Positions 28,332 to 35,660 of a stretch of DNA of 35,733 nucleotides are shown here, piece by piece (position 1 is the stretch's first letter; each line of letters begins with the position of its first letter). The notes under the pieces were generated by a model. The model searched no databases, had not been told where the DNA came from, and saw only the letters and a list, made by a program, of their open reading frames with translations. Position numbers and translations under genes: made by a program. Source of the stretch: Cetobacterium sp. ZOR0034. GTDB taxonomy: Bacteria; Fusobacteriota; Fusobacteriia; Fusobacteriales; Fusobacteriaceae. The stretch spans positions 1 to 35,733 of the forward strand of contig NZ_JTLI01000005.1 in the NCBI RefSeq assembly GCF_000799075.1. The letters are read 5' to 3'.

Positions 28332-28360
28332 TTGAAAAAAAGTTTTTGGTATGATATAGT
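28332..28360 (+). promoter_or_regulatory. Methionine operon promoter
   Basis: -35 TTGAAA (28332-28337) and -10 TATAGT (28355-28360) are separated by 17 bases. Transcription would start near 28367, giving a leader of about 235 bases before metY, which contains a leader peptide and an attenuator. Confidence 0.75.
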
Positions 28361-28390
28361 ATAAAAAAATATTTTATAGGAGTGGTTGAT

Positions 28391-28459
28391 ATGTTTAAAA
28401 AGACGATAAAAACTACAATGATGAATATGATGCCTTTGGGAGTTGGTACCAAAAATTAA
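28391..28459 (+). CDS. Methionine-rich leader peptide of the met operon
   Basis: A 22-codon open frame too short for normal gene calling. AGGAG (28378-28382) lies eight bases ahead of ATG 28391, and TAA is at 28457-28459. The peptide begins MFKKTIKTT, continues MMNMMP and ends LGVGTKN. Four internal Met codons fall within five (28418-28432), far above chance. It sits between a good promoter and a terminator hairpin that precede five methionine-biosynthesis genes. Its likely job is to sense charged elongator Met-tRNA: slow translation at the Met cluster would change folding of the downstream RNA. The product itself probably has no function. No experimental evidence is available to me. Confidence 0.85.
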   Translation: MFKKTIKTTMMNMMPLGVGTKN

Positions 28460-28568
28460 TTTTTTAATTTTGGGACGAACTCATTTTGATTTGCTTAAAT
28501 GAGATCTCCCGAAGATATAGCTTTTAAAACACAGCTTGGGAGATTGTCTCTCAAGCTTTTTTTATTTT
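28440..28568 (+). promoter_or_regulatory. Ribosome-mediated transcription attenuator of the met operon
   Basis: Four competing helices can be drawn. (0:1) 28440-28482: GAGTT with AACTC, enclosing CCAAAA with TTTTGG. (1:2) 28472-28510: CTCATTT with AAATGAG, extended outward by GGGA with TCCC. (2:3) 28504-28544: ATCTCCC with GGGAGAT, extended by AAG with CTT. (3:4) the terminator at 28533-28557. Each shares a strand with the next. A ribosome finishing the leader peptide would melt 0:1, allowing 1:2 and the terminator. A ribosome stalled on the Met codons would leave 0:1 free to form, freeing strand 2 for the antiterminator 2:3. The pairings are visible; the mechanism is inferred from classical amino-acid attenuators. 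Confidence 0.8.
28533..28568 (+). terminator. Attenuator terminator upstream of metY
   Basis: An 11-bp stem AGCTTGGGAGA (28533-28543) and TCTCTCAAGCT (28547-28557), with one G-T wobble and a TTG loop, is followed by seven T. It lies 34 bases ahead of the metY start and inside the operon leader, so it is conditional. Confidence 0.88.
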
Positions 28569-28601: not shown

Positions 28602-29684
28602 ATGGCTTATAAATTTGAAACAATTCAGCTTCACGGAGGACAACATCCAGATTCAGAAACAGGTTCAAGAGCAGTTCCAATTTATCAAACATCATCATAT
28701 GTGTTTAAAGATAGTGATCATGCAGCAAGTAATATATATGGAGGAACATACAACTTTCTAGCAAATACAATAAAAGATTATGGAGTTGAATCAAGATTTT
28801 TTAATCCGAAAGATTTAGATGAGTTAAGAGCATTAATCACCTCTAAAACAAAGGTCATCTTTATAGAGAGCTTAGGAAATCCTAGTGGAGATGTTGTAGA
28901 TATTGAGGGAATATCTCTAATTGCTCATGAATATAATATTCCATTGGTTGTGGACAATACATTTGCGACTCCATACCTAATAAAACCTTTTCAGTTTGGA
29001 GCAGATATAGTTGTACATTCAGCCACGAAATTTTTAGGCGGTCATGGAACTTCAATAGCTGGAGTAATCGTTGACGGTGGAAAGTTTAATTGGAAGGATG
29101 AAAAATTTCAAACATTCAATACTCCAGACAATGGATATCATGGGCTGAAGTACTCTGATTTAGATGAAACGGCATTTATAATAAAAGCCAGAGTAAAAAC
29201 TTTACGAGATACAGGAGCAGCGCTATCACCATTTAATGCGTTTCTTATTCTCCAAGGAATAGAAACACTATCTCTAAGAATGGAAAGACATGTAAAAAAT
29301 GCTAAAGAGATTGCTAGATTTTTATATGAAAATAATGAAGTTGAGTGGGTAAGTTATCCAGAGTTTCAAGAAAACACCGATAAAAAATTAATAGAAAAAT
29401 ATCTTAAAAATGGAGCAACATCAATCTTTACTTTTGGACTTAAAGGAGGTAGAAACCGTGGCAAAAAATTCATAGATTCTTTAGAACTGTTTTCTCACTT
29501 AGCTAATGTAGCTGATGCAAAGTCTTTAATAATACATCCAGCTTCAACAACACATGGACAATTAAGTGATATTGAATTAGAAAAATCAGGAGTAAAACCT
29601 GAAACAATAAGAATATCAGTTGGTTTAGAAAATATAGATGACCTTATTTTAGACTTAAAAAAAGCAATAGAATTGAGTAAATAG
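28602..29684 (+). CDS. metY: O-acetylhomoserine sulfhydrylase with internal in-frame deletion
   Basis: A PLP enzyme of the Cys/Met metabolism family that would make homocysteine from O-acetylhomoserine and sulfide. N-terminal FETIQLHGGQHPDSETGSRA and IYQTSSYVFKDSDHAA, the PLP Lys143 in HSATKFLGGHG, and the C-terminal HLANVADAKSLIIHPASTTH are all present. The protein has 360 residues, against about 425 for the family. Sequence jumps from SDHAA straight to SNIYGGTYN at about 28727. The missing stretch of about 65 residues normally holds the Y-x-R-x-x-NPT loop and the SGQAA phosphate-binding motif, so activity is doubtful. The reading frame is intact on both sides. It may be a functional loss, a strain variant or an assembly error. 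AGGGAGG precedes ATG 28602. Confidence 0.88.
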   Translation: MAYKFETIQLHGGQHPDSETGSRAVPIYQTSSYVFKDSDHAASNIYGGTYNFLANTIKDYGVESRFFNPKDLDELRALITSKTKVIFIESLGNPSGDVVDIEGISLIAHEYNIPLVVDNTFATPYLIKPFQFGADIVVHSATKFLGGHGTSIAGVIVDGGKFNWKDEKFQTFNTPDNGYHGLKYSDLDETAFIIKARVKTLRDTGAALSPFNAFLILQGIETLSLRMERHVKNAKEIARFLYENNEVEWVSYPEFQENTDKKLIEKYLKNGATSIFTFGLKGGRNRGKKFIDSLELFSHLANVADAKSLIIHPASTTHGQLSDIELEKSGVKPETIRISVGLENIDDLILDLKKAIELSK

Positions 29685-29692
29685 GAGAGGAT

Positions 29693-30571
29693 ATGAAAAT
29701 TAAAAATATATATAAAAAGAAAAAACCTGTTATATCATTTGAAATATTTCCACCTAATGAGAGGTATCCTATTGAAAATATCTTTGAAACAATAGATAAA
29801 CTAATAGAATTAAAACCAGATTTTATAAGTGTTACATATGGTGCAGGTGGAACTACTAGAGGACGAACTGTAGAGATTGCATCGAGAATAAAAAATACTC
29901 ATAATACGGAAGTCTTGGCTCATTTAACTTGTGTAGGTGCTAAAAAAATAGAGATAGAAAATATTTTAGAAGAGTTAAAAAAAGAGAATATCGAGAATGT
30001 CTTAGCTTTGAGAGGAGACTTTCCGAAAGAGAATGAATCAGTTGAGGGAGACTTTAGATACGCAAGTAAATTAATTCAAAAAATAAAAGCAGAGAGTGAT
30101 CTGTGTGTTGGAGCAGCGTTTTATCCTGAAGGTCATCAAGAAACAAATGATCTTTTAGATCTGTTTTATTTGAGAGAGAAAGTTAAAGAGGGAACGGATT
30201 TTTTAATATCACAAATTTTCTTTGATAATGATTATTTTTATAGTTTTAAAGAAAAATGTGAAAAATTAGGAATTGATATTCCGCTAGTTGCAGGTATTAT
30301 TCCAGTTACAAATGCAAATCAGATAAAAAGGATAACCGAGTTATGTGGTTCGACGATACCCTTAAAATTTCAAAAAATATTAAACAGATATGAAAATAAT
30401 CCAGAAGCATTAAAAGAAGCCGGAATAGCTTATGCTGTTGAGCAGATAATTGATCTTCTATCCTCAGGAGTTTCCGGAATTCATATATATACAATGAACA
30501 AAGTCGATGTCACTAAAGAGATTATGAGAAGAATAGAAAAAGTGAAAGAATATCTAGAGGAGGTGAGTTAA
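29693..30571 (+). CDS. metF: Methylenetetrahydrofolate reductase
   Basis: A 292-residue flavin-dependent TIM-barrel enzyme that reduces 5,10-methylene-THF to 5-methyl-THF, the methyl donor for MetH downstream. The catalytic Glu in SFEIFPP, VTYGAGGTTR, LAHLTCVG and the FAD-contact Asp in LALRGDFP are all present, as is the late GIHIYTMN. Length matches bacterial MetF (about 290-300). It begins eight bases after the metY stop with GGAGAGG as ribosome site. It ends one base before the presumed metA start, and AGGAGG in its last codons serves metA. Confidence 0.95.
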   Translation: MKIKNIYKKKKPVISFEIFPPNERYPIENIFETIDKLIELKPDFISVTYGAGGTTRGRTVEIASRIKNTHNTEVLAHLTCVGAKKIEIENILEELKKENIENVLALRGDFPKENESVEGDFRYASKLIQKIKAESDLCVGAAFYPEGHQETNDLLDLFYLREKVKEGTDFLISQIFFDNDYFYSFKEKCEKLGIDIPLVAGIIPVTNANQIKRITELCGSTIPLKFQKILNRYENNPEALKEAGIAYAVEQIIDLLSSGVSGIHIYTMNKVDVTKEIMRRIEKVKEYLEEVS

Positions 30572-30572
30572 A

Positions 30573-31313
30573 ATAAAGATAGGGATTATAAATTTGATGC
30601 CAATAAAACAAGAGGTTGAATATCAATTTTCAACAATCTTTGAAAAAATAGATAGAGATATTGAGTTAAAATATATATATCCCACAACTCATAGTTACAA
30701 AAATATATCTTTAGATTATTTAAGAGAAAAATATATTCCAATGAATAAGATAGGAGAGGATGTCTATGATGCTTTCATTGTAACAGGAGCTCCAATAGAG
30801 AGATATAAATATGAAGACGTAGATTTTTGGCAAGAAATTGATAGCTTTTTTAAAAAAAATAAGCATCCAACTATTTATATATGCTGGGGTGCTCAAGGAG
30901 CTTTATACTCAAAGTTCGGAATAGAAAAATATGAGTTGGATAAAAAGTTATTTGGTGTGTATGAACATGAGATAAAAGAAAAAAATCCATTTATAAAAAA
31001 TAGATTTTATGCTCCTCATTCGAGAAATACATACAATAAAAAGGAGAGCATTGAAGAAGCGGGATTGATTATAATTGGGGAATCCGATGAAGCTGGAGTA
31101 TACATGTGTTCAACAGCTGATTATAAGAGTATATTTATATCAGGGCATAGTGAATATCAACCTGAACGATTAAAATTTGAATTTGAAAGAGATAGAGGAG
31201 AGATTCCTAAGAATTATTTTGTAGAGAATAATCCAGAGAATGAAATACTTTTTAATTGGGAAAATCATAGAGATGAATTTTATAAAAATTGGATAGAGTT
31301 TATAGGAGGGTAA
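30573..31313 (+). CDS. metA: Homoserine O-acyltransferase (probably O-acetyl), apparent AUA start
   Basis: A MetA-family acyltransferase. Cys104 (YICWGAQG), His192 and Glu194 (SGHSEY) form the expected active site, and FYAPHSRNT is conserved. Glu76 in VTGAPIERY sits at the position reported to select acetyl-CoA over succinyl-CoA, matching O-acetylhomoserine use by MetY. It lacks the about 35-residue N-terminal extension of E. coli MetA. The conserved first strand reads KIGIINLMP, and the codon before it is ATA at 30573. AGGAGG (30558-30563) lies nine bases upstream, an in-frame TGA is at 30564, and no ATG/GTG/TTG lies between. The first conventional start, TTG 30594, would remove the strand. 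Numbering here counts ATA as residue 1. Confidence 0.88.
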   Translation: MKIGIINLMPIKQEVEYQFSTIFEKIDRDIELKYIYPTTHSYKNISLDYLREKYIPMNKIGEDVYDAFIVTGAPIERYKYEDVDFWQEIDSFFKKNKHPTIYICWGAQGALYSKFGIEKYELDKKLFGVYEHEIKEKNPFIKNRFYAPHSRNTYNKKESIEEAGLIIIGESDEAGVYMCSTADYKSIFISGHSEYQPERLKFEFERDRGEIPKNYFVENNPENEILFNWENHRDEFYKNWIEFIGG

Positions 31314-31314
31314 A

Positions 31315-32268
31315 ATGAAGATAGGAATTATAGGAATTGGAACTGTTGGCGGAGGAGTATTGGAGCTTTTAAAGAAAGAGAAAAAAAATATAGAAAAAAG
31401 AGTTGGAGAAAAGATTGAGGTTTCTTGGATCTGTGATTTGAAAGAGAGCGTAAATAAAGATAGTAGCTATAGATTCACTAAAGATTATGAGGATATTTTA
31501 AAAGATGAGAGTGTAGAAACAATAATTGAATTGATAGGAGGAAACACAGTAGCCTTTTCTATAGCTAAAGAAACCCTAAAAAATGGTAAGAATCTAATAA
31601 CTGCAAATAAATATCTTTTAGCAACAAAGGGAAAGGAGATTTTTGGATTAGCAAAAGAGAATGGTGTGAAAATATTCTTTGAAGCTGCGGTGGCAGGTGG
31701 AACACCAGCTGTATCTTCAATCTATGAAGGTACATTTTCTGGAGGAATAAAAAGAATTAGAGGAGTTTTAAATGGAACTTCAAACTATATCTTAAGTAAG
31801 ATGGAAGAGGGATGTAGCTATGAAGCTGCTCTTAGTTTAGCACAGAGTAATGGATATGCAGAGCTAGATCCAACATTTGATGTAAAAGGAATTGACACAG
31901 CTCATAAAATTAGTTTATTATCATATTTAGTATGGGATGAGCTTGTAGATTTCGAAAAAATAAAAATAGAAGGAATTGATAAAATAACAAAAGAGCAGGT
32001 TGAAGTTGCTAAAAGTTTAGGAAAAAGATTTAAACTTATAGGAGAGGCTATAAAAATTGAAAATGAGATTGAAATATATGTACAACCATCTCTTCTGGAT
32101 AAAGAGGATCAATTATATGGAGTAAAAGACGCATATAATGGTATCGAGAGTTATGGAGAACATTTAGGAGAGACATTCTTCTATGGAAAGGGAGCAGGAG
32201 CATTACCTACTGCAAATGCAATTATATCTGATTTATATAAAATTAAAAATTCAAATGCTTGGAATTAA
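31315..32268 (+). CDS. hom: Homoserine dehydrogenase, ACT-less short form
   Basis: A 317-residue NAD(P)-dependent enzyme that reduces aspartate semialdehyde to homoserine. The nucleotide-binding start is GIIGIGTVGGGVLELL. The catalytic-domain motifs TANKYLLA, EAAVAGGTPAV, RGVLNGTSNYILSKM and GYAELDPTFDVKGIDTAHK are intact, including the catalytic lysine regions. The protein stops after FYGKGAGALPTANAIISDLY and lacks the C-terminal ACT domain of about 80-100 residues found in most bacterial Hom proteins. Threonine feedback through that domain is therefore absent. It starts one base after the metA stop, with GGAGGG overlapping the end of metA. Placement in a met operon suggests dedicated homoserine supply for methionine. 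Confidence 0.95.
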   Translation: MKIGIIGIGTVGGGVLELLKKEKKNIEKRVGEKIEVSWICDLKESVNKDSSYRFTKDYEDILKDESVETIIELIGGNTVAFSIAKETLKNGKNLITANKYLLATKGKEIFGLAKENGVKIFFEAAVAGGTPAVSSIYEGTFSGGIKRIRGVLNGTSNYILSKMEEGCSYEAALSLAQSNGYAELDPTFDVKGIDTAHKISLLSYLVWDELVDFEKIKIEGIDKITKEQVEVAKSLGKRFKLIGEAIKIENEIEIYVQPSLLDKEDQLYGVKDAYNGIESYGEHLGETFFYGKGAGALPTANAIISDLYKIKNSNAWN

Positions 32269-32279
32269 AAGGGGGAAAT

Positions 32280-35200
32280 ATGTTAGCTGAAAAGAAAATA
32301 TATATACTAGATGGAGCTACTGGAACAGCCATCCAAAGCTATAAATTATCAGAAGAGGACTATACGTTTAAAGGGAAAGGTTATAAAGGGTGTCATGATA
32401 TATTAAATCTAACTAGAAAAGATATAATTTTAGATGTTCATAGAAAATATATCGAAGCTGGTGCCGATATAATTGAAACGAATACATTCAATTCAAATAG
32501 TGTTTCTTTGAAAGATTACGGAATAGAAAAGGAATCATATAGATTGTCATTTGAAGGAGCTAAATTGGCGAAAGAAGCAGTAATAAATGCCAAAAGGAAA
32601 GTTTTAGTTGCTGGTTCTATGGGACCAACAAACAAAAGTGCATCTATTCCAACTAAAAATAGTATCTTAGATAGAGAGATTAGTTTTAATGAATTGTTTG
32701 AGAGTTACTGTGTTCAAGCACAAGGACTTTATGATGGTGGAGTTGACTTATTTCTAATTGAAACTATTTATGATGGTTTAAATGCAAAAGCAGCAGTTAT
32801 GGCGTGTGAAGAGATTGCTGAGAAAGTTGGGAAAAAAATACCAATAATGATATCAGCAACTGTTGATAGAAGTGGAAAAATTTTATCAGGTCAAGATATA
32901 AAATCTTTGATAACATCTCTAGATAGGGACAGTATTATATCTTTTGGACTAAATTGTTCTTTTGGTGCAAAAGATTTAATACCTTTAATCGAGTCATTGA
33001 GTGACTATACAGATAAGATGTTATCTGTATATCCTAATGCTGGATTTCCTGATGAAACGGGTGAGTATGCAGAAAAACCAGAAATGACATTAGAATATTT
33101 AAAAAAATTGATAGATAATAAAAAAATAAATATTATAGGTGGATGCTGTGGAACAACACCGAAACACATAGAGTTGATAAGTCAGTACTCGATTGGAAAA
33201 GTTCCTAGAGAAGTTGGAATTAAAAAAAATGATGGTTTTTTTTTATCTGGAAATAGCCCATTAAAAAATAATTTAAATTTTTATGTTGTTGGAGAGAGAA
33301 ATAATGTAGCTGGTTCTAGAAAATTTAAGAGATTAATTGAAGAGAAGAGATATGAAGAGGCTGTAGAAATATCGAGAGAGCAAGTTGGAAACGGAGCCAC
33401 TATAATTGATATAAATCTAGATGACGCTCTTTTAGATTCAAAAGCTGAGATGGAAATATTTTTGAAAACTTTGAGTAATGACATAGCTGTTTCACAAATA
33501 CCAATAATGATTGACTCTTCAAACTTTGATGTAATAGAGATTGCTTTGAAAAATATTTCGGGAAAGGCTATTGTAAATTCAATTAGCCTTAAAGAAGGAG
33601 AGGAGGAGTTTTTAAGAAAAGCTAAAGTCATAAAAAATTATGGAGCAGCAGTTGTTGTTATGGCTTTTGATGAAGAGGGGCAAGGAGTAGAGTATAGTAG
33701 AAAAATAGAGATTTGTAAAAGAGCATACGATTTATTGATAAAACATGGATGGAAGAAAGAGGATATTGTTTTTGATCCAAATATTTTAACTATTGGCACT
33801 GGAAGACAAGAAGATAAAGGTCATGCTGTAGACTTTCTTCGAGCTACGAAATGGATATCTGAAAATTTAAAAGGAGCTAAAATCAGTGGTGGGATAAGCA
33901 ATCTGTCTTTTGCATTTCGAGGAAATAACAATTTGAGAAAACTTATTCATGATAGATTTTTAAAAAAAGCTCTTATAAATGGATTGAATATGGCAATTAT
34001 AAATCCAAATGAAAATGAGGTAGAATTCCCTGAAGAGTTAATTGTTTTAGTAGATAGATTAATAGAAGGGGAGGATGCATTAGAACAGATATTAGAGTTT
34101 TTTAAAACTAAGAAATTTAAGGCAAAAAATGATTTAAAAAACGATTTCGAACAGATAGAAAAGAGTTTTGAAGATAGATTGAAATCTAAAATATTAAATG
34201 GCAAAGTAAGAGGATTAGAATCTGATATAGATGAAGCTTTAAAAAGCTATAAAGCTCTAGATATTATTCAAAATATTTTGATGGTTGCGTTAGAGGAAGT
34301 TGGAGATAAATTTGAAAAAGGAGAGATTTATCTGCCACAAATAATAAAATCGGCAGTTGTTATGGAAAATGCTGTAAAATATCTAACTCCATACATCACA
34401 CAAAAAGAGGTCTATAAAAAAAATAAAGGAAAGATTCTTATGTGTACAGTTAAAGGTGATGTTCATGATATTGGAAAGAATATCACTAAAACTGTTTTAG
34501 AATGTAATGGTTACGAAGTTTTAGATTTAGGAGTTATGGTTGAAAAAGAAAAAATTTATAATTTTGCTATTGAAAATAATGTGGATGCTGTAACATTGAG
34601 TGGATTAATAACTCCATCGTTAAGTGAAATGGAGGAGGTTTTAGATTTATTTAATAAAAATAAACAAACTTTACCTTTAATTATAGCAGGAGCAGCAACA
34701 TCTAAACTGCATACAGCTATAAAGTTAGAACCACTATATGAAAATTGTGTATTTTATGTGACTGATGCGTCTTCGACAGTAGTTTTATTAGATTCTTTAT
34801 TGGGAGAAAAATCTGAATTGTTAAAAGAACGAATAAAAAATGAATATCAAACGTTAAGAGAACTTTACTATAATAATAAGAAAAATACAGTAACTAAAAA
34901 TATCTCTCTAGCTAGGTTAAATGCTATTCATAAAGGATATACTCCGGTAACTCCAAAATCGTTGGATAAAATAGTTATTAAAATTCGAATTGAAAATATT
35001 TTAAAAAATATTGATTGGAATATTTTTCTATCAACATTAAAAGTTAAAGGAAGTTCTGAAGAAAAAATAGTTTTGGATGAAGCAAATAGAATTTTAAAAG
35101 ATTGGTCAAATAAAAATATTATGATTAAAGCTATATATAAAATTTGTAAAGTAAGAAAAGATAATGATTTTTTAGATATTGCAGAATTAAAAATTCCTTT

Positions 35201-35660
35201 AGTCAGAAATCAGGGTTTAGTAAATGAATCACTTGCAGATTATTTTGAAGAAAATGATTATTTAGGATTTTTTATTGCTAGTATTAAACCAGAGGATGAG
35301 AAAGATATATTTCAACAACTTTTAGCTAATGTATTAATAGAAGCATCTTCAGAATATCTACAAAATTATATCTCTGAAAATAATTGGAATATAAATATAA
35401 GACCTGTAATAGGGTATCCATCTTTGCCTGATCATTCATTGAAAAAGGATATATTCAATCTTTTGAATGCGGAAAGTATTGGAGTTGAATTAAGCGAAAA
35501 TTTCGCTATGAAACCAACTTCAACTGTTTGTGGAATATATATAGGAAATCCCAAAAGTGAATATCTATCCCCCCGTACTATATTAGATGATCAACTTGAA
35601 GATATTTCAAAAATAAGAGGAATCACTCCTTCAATTTTAAAAAAATATATGGGAATGTAA
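32280..35660 (+). CDS. metH: Cobalamin-dependent methionine synthase
   Basis: A 1126-residue modular enzyme transferring methyl from methyl-THF to homocysteine via B12. The homocysteine domain (about 1-310) has zinc ligands Cys226 (GLNCSFG) and Cys289-Cys290 (GGCCGTT). The pterin domain (about 330-590) includes VVGERNNVAGSRKF and GGISNLSFAFRGN. The B12 cap and Rossmann domains (about 640-860) carry His729 in GDVHDIGKN, the cobalt ligand. The C-terminal activation domain (about 880-1126) has RPVIGYPSLPDH and ELSENFAMKPTSTVCGIY for SAM-dependent reactivation. ATG 32280 follows GGGGG; a TTG at 32259 overlapping hom is rejected. Reactivation needs an electron donor such as the flavodoxin at 11607. 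It is the last visible gene of the operon. Confidence 0.96.
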   Translation: MLAEKKIYILDGATGTAIQSYKLSEEDYTFKGKGYKGCHDILNLTRKDIILDVHRKYIEAGADIIETNTFNSNSVSLKDYGIEKESYRLSFEGAKLAKEAVINAKRKVLVAGSMGPTNKSASIPTKNSILDREISFNELFESYCVQAQGLYDGGVDLFLIETIYDGLNAKAAVMACEEIAEKVGKKIPIMISATVDRSGKILSGQDIKSLITSLDRDSIISFGLNCSFGAKDLIPLIESLSDYTDKMLSVYPNAGFPDETGEYAEKPEMTLEYLKKLIDNKKINIIGGCCGTTPKHIELISQYSIGKVPREVGIKKNDGFFLSGNSPLKNNLNFYVVGERNNVAGSRKFKRLIEEKRYEEAVEISREQVGNGATIIDINLDDALLDSKAEMEIFLKTLSNDIAVSQIPIMIDSSNFDVIEIALKNISGKAIVNSISLKEGEEEFLRKAKVIKNYGAAVVVMAFDEEGQGVEYSRKIEICKRAYDLLIKHGWKKEDIVFDPNILTIGTGRQEDKGHAVDFLRATKWISENLKGAKISGGISNLSFAFRGNNNLRKLIHDRFLKKALINGLNMAIINPNENEVEFPEELIVLVDRLIEGEDALEQILEFFKTKKFKAKNDLKNDFEQIEKSFEDRLKSKILNGKVRGLESDIDEALKSYKALDIIQNILMVALEEVGDKFEKGEIYLPQIIKSAVVMENAVKYLTPYITQKEVYKKNKGKILMCTVKGDVHDIGKNITKTVLECNGYEVLDLGVMVEKEKIYNFAIENNVDAVTLSGLITPSLSEMEEVLDLFNKNKQTLPLIIAGAATSKLHTAIKLEPLYENCVFYVTDASSTVVLLDSLLGEKSELLKERIKNEYQTLRELYYNNKKNTVTKNISLARLNAIHKGYTPVTPKSLDKIVIKIRIENILKNIDWNIFLSTLKVKGSSEEKIVLDEANRILKDWSNKNIMIKAIYKICKVRKDNDFLDIAELKIPLVRNQGLVNESLADYFEENDYLGFFIASIKPEDEKDIFQQLLANVLIEASSEYLQNYISENNWNINIRPVIGYPSLPDHSLKKDIFNLLNAESIGVELSENFAMKPTSTVCGIYIGNPKSEYLSPRTILDDQLEDISKIRGITPSILKKYMGM

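Follow-up and report, generated by a model that had tools for sequence, protein, structure and literature searches.

A methionine-codon leader upstream of the metY operon in Cetobacterium, with a diverged counterpart in Psychrilyobacter: a candidate transcription attenuator

The DNA analysed here, a stretch of 35,733 nucleotides from Cetobacterium sp. ZOR0034 (the window, in what follows), carries a methionine biosynthesis operon in the order metY-metF-metA-hom-metH, its genes identified by NCBIfam profiles, with metA below the cut-off (Table 1). The metA-like protein is without about 43 N-terminal profile positions, and two relatives have the same short form. When compared with its counterpart in a close relative, metY displays an exact in-frame deletion of 189 nt (63 aa), with GCAAG at the junction; this copy may therefore be inactive, as a result of a recent loss of function, or it may be misassembled. 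The interval from 28294, where an ORF ends, to the start of metY at 28602 holds a promoter-like site, a Shine-Dalgarno sequence, a short leader ORF and a terminator. The leader runs over 22 codons, from the ATG at 28391 to the TAA stop at 28457-28459 on the forward strand, and it reads MFKKTIKTTMMNMMPLGVGTKN followed by the stop. Its Met codons begin at 28418, 28421, 28427 and 28430, forming the pattern MM-N-MM. A preliminary description of this DNA, made from the letters alone, had singled out a 22-codon leader with Met-Met-Asn-Met-Met, and a direct check of both sequence and translation bears this out.

Table 1. Coordinates of the leader region and of the downstream operon, numbered from the first nucleotide of the window.
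Feature	Position	Strand	Pairing or identity	Basis
Probable promoter, TTGAAA-17 nt-TATAGT, TG before -10	28332-28360	+		Consensus scan; -10 region recurs in Cetobacterium copies
Shine-Dalgarno AGGAG of leader ORF	28378-28382	+		Invariant in 14 aligned copies
Hairpin S, over leader ribosome-binding site and start codon	28382-28416	+	28382-28387 with 28411-28416	6/6 pairs in 14/14 copies, one G-U to A-U
Leader ORF	28391-28459	+	Conserved core KTTMMNMM(M)P[LM]GV.TKN	ORF gaps all multiples of 3; core conserved
Regulatory Met codons, ATG ATG AAT ATG ATG	28418-28432	+		Invariant across Cetobacterium
Strand 0, at and directly 3' of the last Met codon	28430-28442	+	Protector helix 0:c, 28434-28442 with 28506-28514, plus 28430-28432 with 28516-28518	Minimum-energy fold; covarying helix; same topology in Psychrilyobacter
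Strand a, holds leader stop	28443-28459	+	Partner b (28464-28479)	14/14 pairs in window; no copy below 13/14
Strand b	28464-28479	+	Partner a, or c (b:c, 28470-28486 with 28497-28512)	
Small hairpin CTCATTT/AAATGAG, compatible with several states	28480-28503	+		7/7 pairs in 13/14 copies
Strand c, switch strand, ATCTCCCGAAG	28504-28514	+	Contested by 0, b and d	Folding and pair counts across copies
Antiterminator helix c:d	28504-28544	+	28504-28512 with 28536-28544	8-9 of 10 possible pairs in 14/14 copies
Intrinsic terminator d:e, then TTTTTT	28533-28563	+	d 28533-28543 with e 28547-28557	Terminator scan; covarying helix
metY, first controlled gene	28602-29684	+	O-acetylhomoserine sulfhydrylase	TIGR01326; without 63 aa
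metF	29693-30571	+		TIGR00676 above cut-off
metA-like	30594-31313	+	Homoserine O-acyltransferase	NF047918/TIGR01001 below cut-off
hom	31315-32268	+	Homoserine dehydrogenase	NF004976 above cut-off
metH	32259-35660	+	Cobalamin-dependent methionine synthase	TIGR02082 above cut-off

This arrangement is not due to chance. Among ATG-started ORFs of 10 to 45 codons with at least four Met in five codons, the leader stands alone on the two strands of the window, and no comparable Met-rich ORF came up in 100 Markov-simulated windows. The d:e helix (28533-28557) is the sole terminator-like site on either strand, 0.2 terminators being expected in shuffled sequences, and none of 200 dinucleotide shuffles folds as well as the RNA itself (z -3.8). 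As for the promoter, the 17-nt spacing proposed earlier is recovered by the consensus scan; promoter-type matches amount to 3 found for 2.3 expected, so that the match taken alone is not above chance.

The leader recurs within the genus. A DNA search of 61 genomes detected it in 10 of 12 Cetobacterium genomes, which often carry two or three copies of it, and a covariance model, R1, built from 14 of these copies, counts 18. They precede metY operons, metNIQ, an aspartokinase and an oligopeptide-type binding protein, and metN-metI-metQ, when it stands behind the leader, often has an amidohydrolase after it. The aspartokinase behind one of the Met leaders is 240 aa long and matches the family profiles over their catalytic part only; it appears to be without regulatory domains. 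In Cetobacterium somerae, Met leaders are borne by large plasmids (NZ_CP092521, NZ_CP092522), where the leader ORF is unannotated. Upstream of the promoter, the sequences are unrelated between locus types; the leader itself is kept. Leaders of the metN class are longer in their N-terminal part, and most of them have an additional Met codon; the reading frame is always kept. Translation is predicted from the Shine-Dalgarno sequence and ATG, which are conserved among aligned copies. Across the 14 copies, each of the 109 pairwise gap runs inside the leader ORF has a length of 3 or 6 nt, and gaps located 3' of the stop are mostly 1-2 nt: to judge from its sequence, the leader ORF looks translated.

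Known modes of control of methionine genes include SAM riboswitches, T-boxes and repressors. A metabolite riboswitch, or a T-box-like leader binding tRNA, in which the ORF would be incidental, would go along with the nucleotide conservation of the leader, high over about 90 nt, and with a UGGNACC-like stretch at 28444-28450 which, by eye, resembles the T-box motif. However, no Rfam family reaches threshold in a search of the leader, and a relaxed search returned 12 weak matches, none of them SAM or T-box (RF00230). The T-box-like bases vary between copies (TTGGT, TTGGA, TTGGG, TTTGT, TTGAT) and none of the 12 Cetobacterium genomes yielded a T-box, so that the T-box reading of UUGGUACC was rejected. 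Furthermore, gaps of codon length in the ORF are not what is expected of an aptamer, and we consider an explanation of this kind quite improbable. A match to His_leader (RF00514) reaches 22.6 bits, below the cut-off of 49; it was dropped as support, since those RF00514 matches of the phylum that were looked at proved to be ordinary terminators next to unrelated genes.

The sister genus Psychrilyobacter harbours a diverged form of the leader, with 12 copies in 6 genomes, placed before metN, metG (methionyl-tRNA synthetase) and metY. R1 matches these copies with E values of about 1e-6 to 1e-3, and a second model, R2, built from the Psychrilyobacter leaders, recovers those of Cetobacterium, each model thus finding the set of the other. 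The diverged form reads there QLNMMMM or NMLMMM, and when Psychrilyobacter peptides, for instance MRNFEFRQLNMMMMLWKGL, MVNSRIGQLNMLMMMLW, QLNMMMMLWKGL and QLNMLMMMLW, are set against that of Cetobacterium, KTTMMNMMPLGVGTKN, the Met run is all that they have in common with it. Between the genera, this run and the topology of the helices alone persist: R2 displays, as in Cetobacterium, an outer helix that starts directly behind the Met codons, a pair of nested hairpins and, last, a terminator. In a joint alignment 95.7% of the cells are paired, against 28-56% when partners are slid, a figure that leans towards the model to which this alignment was fitted, as slid and shuffled controls correct in part; double-sided changes affect 16 of 39 pairs. 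At the level of sequence, the second genus supports codon sensing. The preliminary description had proposed to look for Met codons and helices in relatives, and both are found in the two genera, nearly all copies standing before methionine genes, with a strictly conserved leader frame and covarying stems. These statements of distribution rest on 98 genomes, in which models can miss diverged leaders.

TnaC is a case of nascent-peptide sensing, and since systems of this type exist, the leader peptide could likewise, through its own sequence, arrest the ribosome in response to free methionine or SAM; the ribosome so arrested, rather than one starved of tRNA, would then set the state of the RNA. 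The Cetobacterium peptide is indeed conserved beyond its Met codons (Table 1, core). Yet that of Psychrilyobacter is unrelated to it except for the Met run, and the conserved tail lies over strands 0 and a; RNA pairing thus accounts for its conservation. Moreover, an arrest at the Met run under high methionine would lead to antitermination, which is the wrong sign for biosynthesis genes. This makes an arrest peptide very unlikely. Counting against codon sensing as well, invariant bases are also found upstream of the Met run, more than it needs; hairpin S, itself invariant, could account for them. Hairpin S may gate translation of the leader.

Downstream of the Met codons, the RNA may adopt several conflicting pairings. 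Four serial helices (a:b, b:c, c:d and d:e) had been proposed in the preliminary description, and all four are present, essentially where it placed them, with the leader stop lying within strand a of the first, as it had said. Its list was incomplete, as 0:c and hairpin S had been missed. The terminator d:e is kept in 14 of 14 copies; it excludes c:d, with which it shares strand d, and both helices are kept in all the Cetobacterium copies, the paired stretch of c:d moving slightly in the metN class.

We consider that the best reading of this locus, and a highly probable one, is that of a ribosome-mediated transcription attenuator sensing charged Met-tRNA, as had been proposed earlier; the conserved, frame-constrained ORF, the Met run, the covarying helices and the association with methionine genes all point in this direction. 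We infer where transcription starts, that the ribosome stalls, in which order the strands exchange and how the operon responds to methionine; these would combine as follows. The preliminary description had suggested that elongator rather than initiator Met-tRNA would be the signal. The leader peptide would be translated while RNA polymerase moves ahead. When Met-tRNA is scarce, the ribosome would stall on the Met run and mask the adjoining strand 0; a:b would occupy strand b, leaving c free for d, and c:d would block the terminator, so that the operon would be transcribed. When Met-tRNA is ample, the ribosome would reach the stop within strand a and open a:b, allowing b to capture c; after release of the ribosome, 0:c would close around a re-formed a:b. 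In both of these methionine-replete states d would pair with e, and transcription would terminate.

Folding predictions go in the same direction, by small margins. Folded at equilibrium, the full-length RNA nearly always ends up with the terminator formed and, since this holds when a ribosome mask is applied, such folds are uninformative; truncated transcripts were used instead. With these and a ribosome mask, a stall at 28427, on the third Met codon, raises antiterminator pairing above its level in free RNA in 14 of 14 copies; in 13 of 14 it also exceeds the level obtained when the ribosome sits at the stop codon. For the window, equilibrium folding gives values close to one another, 0.92 for the stall, 0.75 for free RNA and 0.75 at the stop. 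Escherichia coli controls under the same protocol give about 0.9 vs 0.07 for thr, and 0.77 vs 0.55, a blurred difference, for his. For the Psychrilyobacter metN and metG leaders, folding predicted no strong antiterminator. The margins being small, we call a switch of the RNA by ribosome position likely in these models, and nothing stronger: the direction that had been announced is the right one in 13 to 14 of the 14 copies, and equilibrium folding backs it weakly. It must also be considered that a shortage of methionine lowers initiator tRNA, hence translation of the leader, and this could blunt the response. That equilibrium folds nearly always hold the terminator, with a small energetic gap between states, would also be expected of a constitutive terminator next to an unrelated small ORF, the metY operon being mainly controlled elsewhere. 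Such an accident is extremely unlikely: the leader is conserved across paralogous methionine loci with unrelated flanks, c:d is retained together with d:e in all copies, and the helices covary.

Weak matches of the covariance models brought other leaders to light. Seven Cetobacterium genomes have, upstream of an AGCS-type amino-acid carrier, a Tyr-codon leader, MKQKIVFNTNAYYYYYLT and a stop, with stems and a terminator, which is probably a Tyr attenuator. A leader reading MNTKLKFGFLLALIIIILSSSV and a stop precedes ilvE in two genomes, with a terminator, and makes a probable Ile/Leu attenuator. In another family of the order, a His-codon leader, MMTLITINNNSINKIRKHHHIGRV and a stop, with stems and terminator, stands before a hisZ-like gene (named by eye). 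Taken together, the Tyr, ilvE and His leaders suggest that Fusobacteriota make general use of leader-peptide attenuation. Not every match was of this kind. Several R2 matches elsewhere are plain terminators, and six inspected matches to the Met-run DNA pattern in other genera of the phylum are out-of-frame Asp runs within coding genes.

Like the enterobacterial trp, his, thr, leu, ilv and phe attenuators, the Cetobacterium leader has a run of regulatory codons in a short ORF whose stop falls within the first hairpin; its antiterminator and terminator exclude each other, and the pathway under control would be that of the sensed amino acid. It differs from them by its predicted signal, methionine, by its unrelated sequence, by a switch strand for which 0, b and d compete, two hairpins being nested within 0:c, and by the use of the Psychrilyobacter version before the Met-tRNA synthetase as well. 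The SAM-I riboswitch (S box, RF00162) also controls methionine genes, but it does so by binding SAM directly, without a ribosome, and it has no match at the leader site. Met T-boxes of lactic acid bacteria sense the charging of tRNA-Met and control methionine genes by antitermination. The signal would be the same here; in T-boxes, however, it is the leader RNA itself that binds the tRNA, and no T-box matches the Cetobacterium leader. In Streptomyces lividans, a methionine leader, metL, has been predicted upstream of metNIQ, with no typical terminator according to its authors (PMC8079986). This proposed leader likewise precedes a methionine transporter, but its Met codons are merely scattered, whereas a Met run, a switch and a terminator are conserved here over two genera. 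In the literature searched we found this weak prediction and no earlier well-supported methionine leader peptide. Nor did we find an earlier report of leader-peptide attenuation in Fusobacteriota: a survey of attenuators in 2010 had such systems shown only in Proteobacteria and Actinobacteria, added Firmicutes, and does not contain the word Fusobacteria (PMC2965389). The novelty claimed in the preliminary description thus agrees with Rfam and with this literature; priority is not certain, as the comparative study of Lopatovskaya et al. (2010) lies outside the comparison.

The genome that carries this leader also has two SAM-I riboswitches, one ahead of metK and one ahead of another metN, which makes the attenuator a complement to these riboswitches genome-wide, not a substitute. 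Elsewhere in the family, another genus carries a SAM riboswitch upstream of its metY, so that this gene lies behind different sensors in different genera. It seems to us fairly probable that, in Cetobacterium and Psychrilyobacter, attenuators reading Met-tRNA control a methionine regulon comprising biosynthesis, uptake and, in Psychrilyobacter, the Met-tRNA synthetase, side by side with SAM riboswitches and within a wider set of Fusobacteriota leaders (Tyr, His, Ile) of similar layout, the Met switch strand having three partners. Leader-peptide attenuation would in this way be extended to the phylum Fusobacteriota, and a mode of sensing well known for other amino acids would extend to methionine, for which it is not established. 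With the attenuator so understood, a single genome would use SAM sensing for metK and one metN, and tRNA sensing for the biosynthetic operon and another metN; as the two signals coexist there, a division of labour between them is directly testable. A shortage of Met-tRNA also hinders the start of translation, which makes the ribosome an awkward sensor of this tRNA, and these leaders would provide a clean test of how an attenuator copes when the amino acid that it senses is the initiator.
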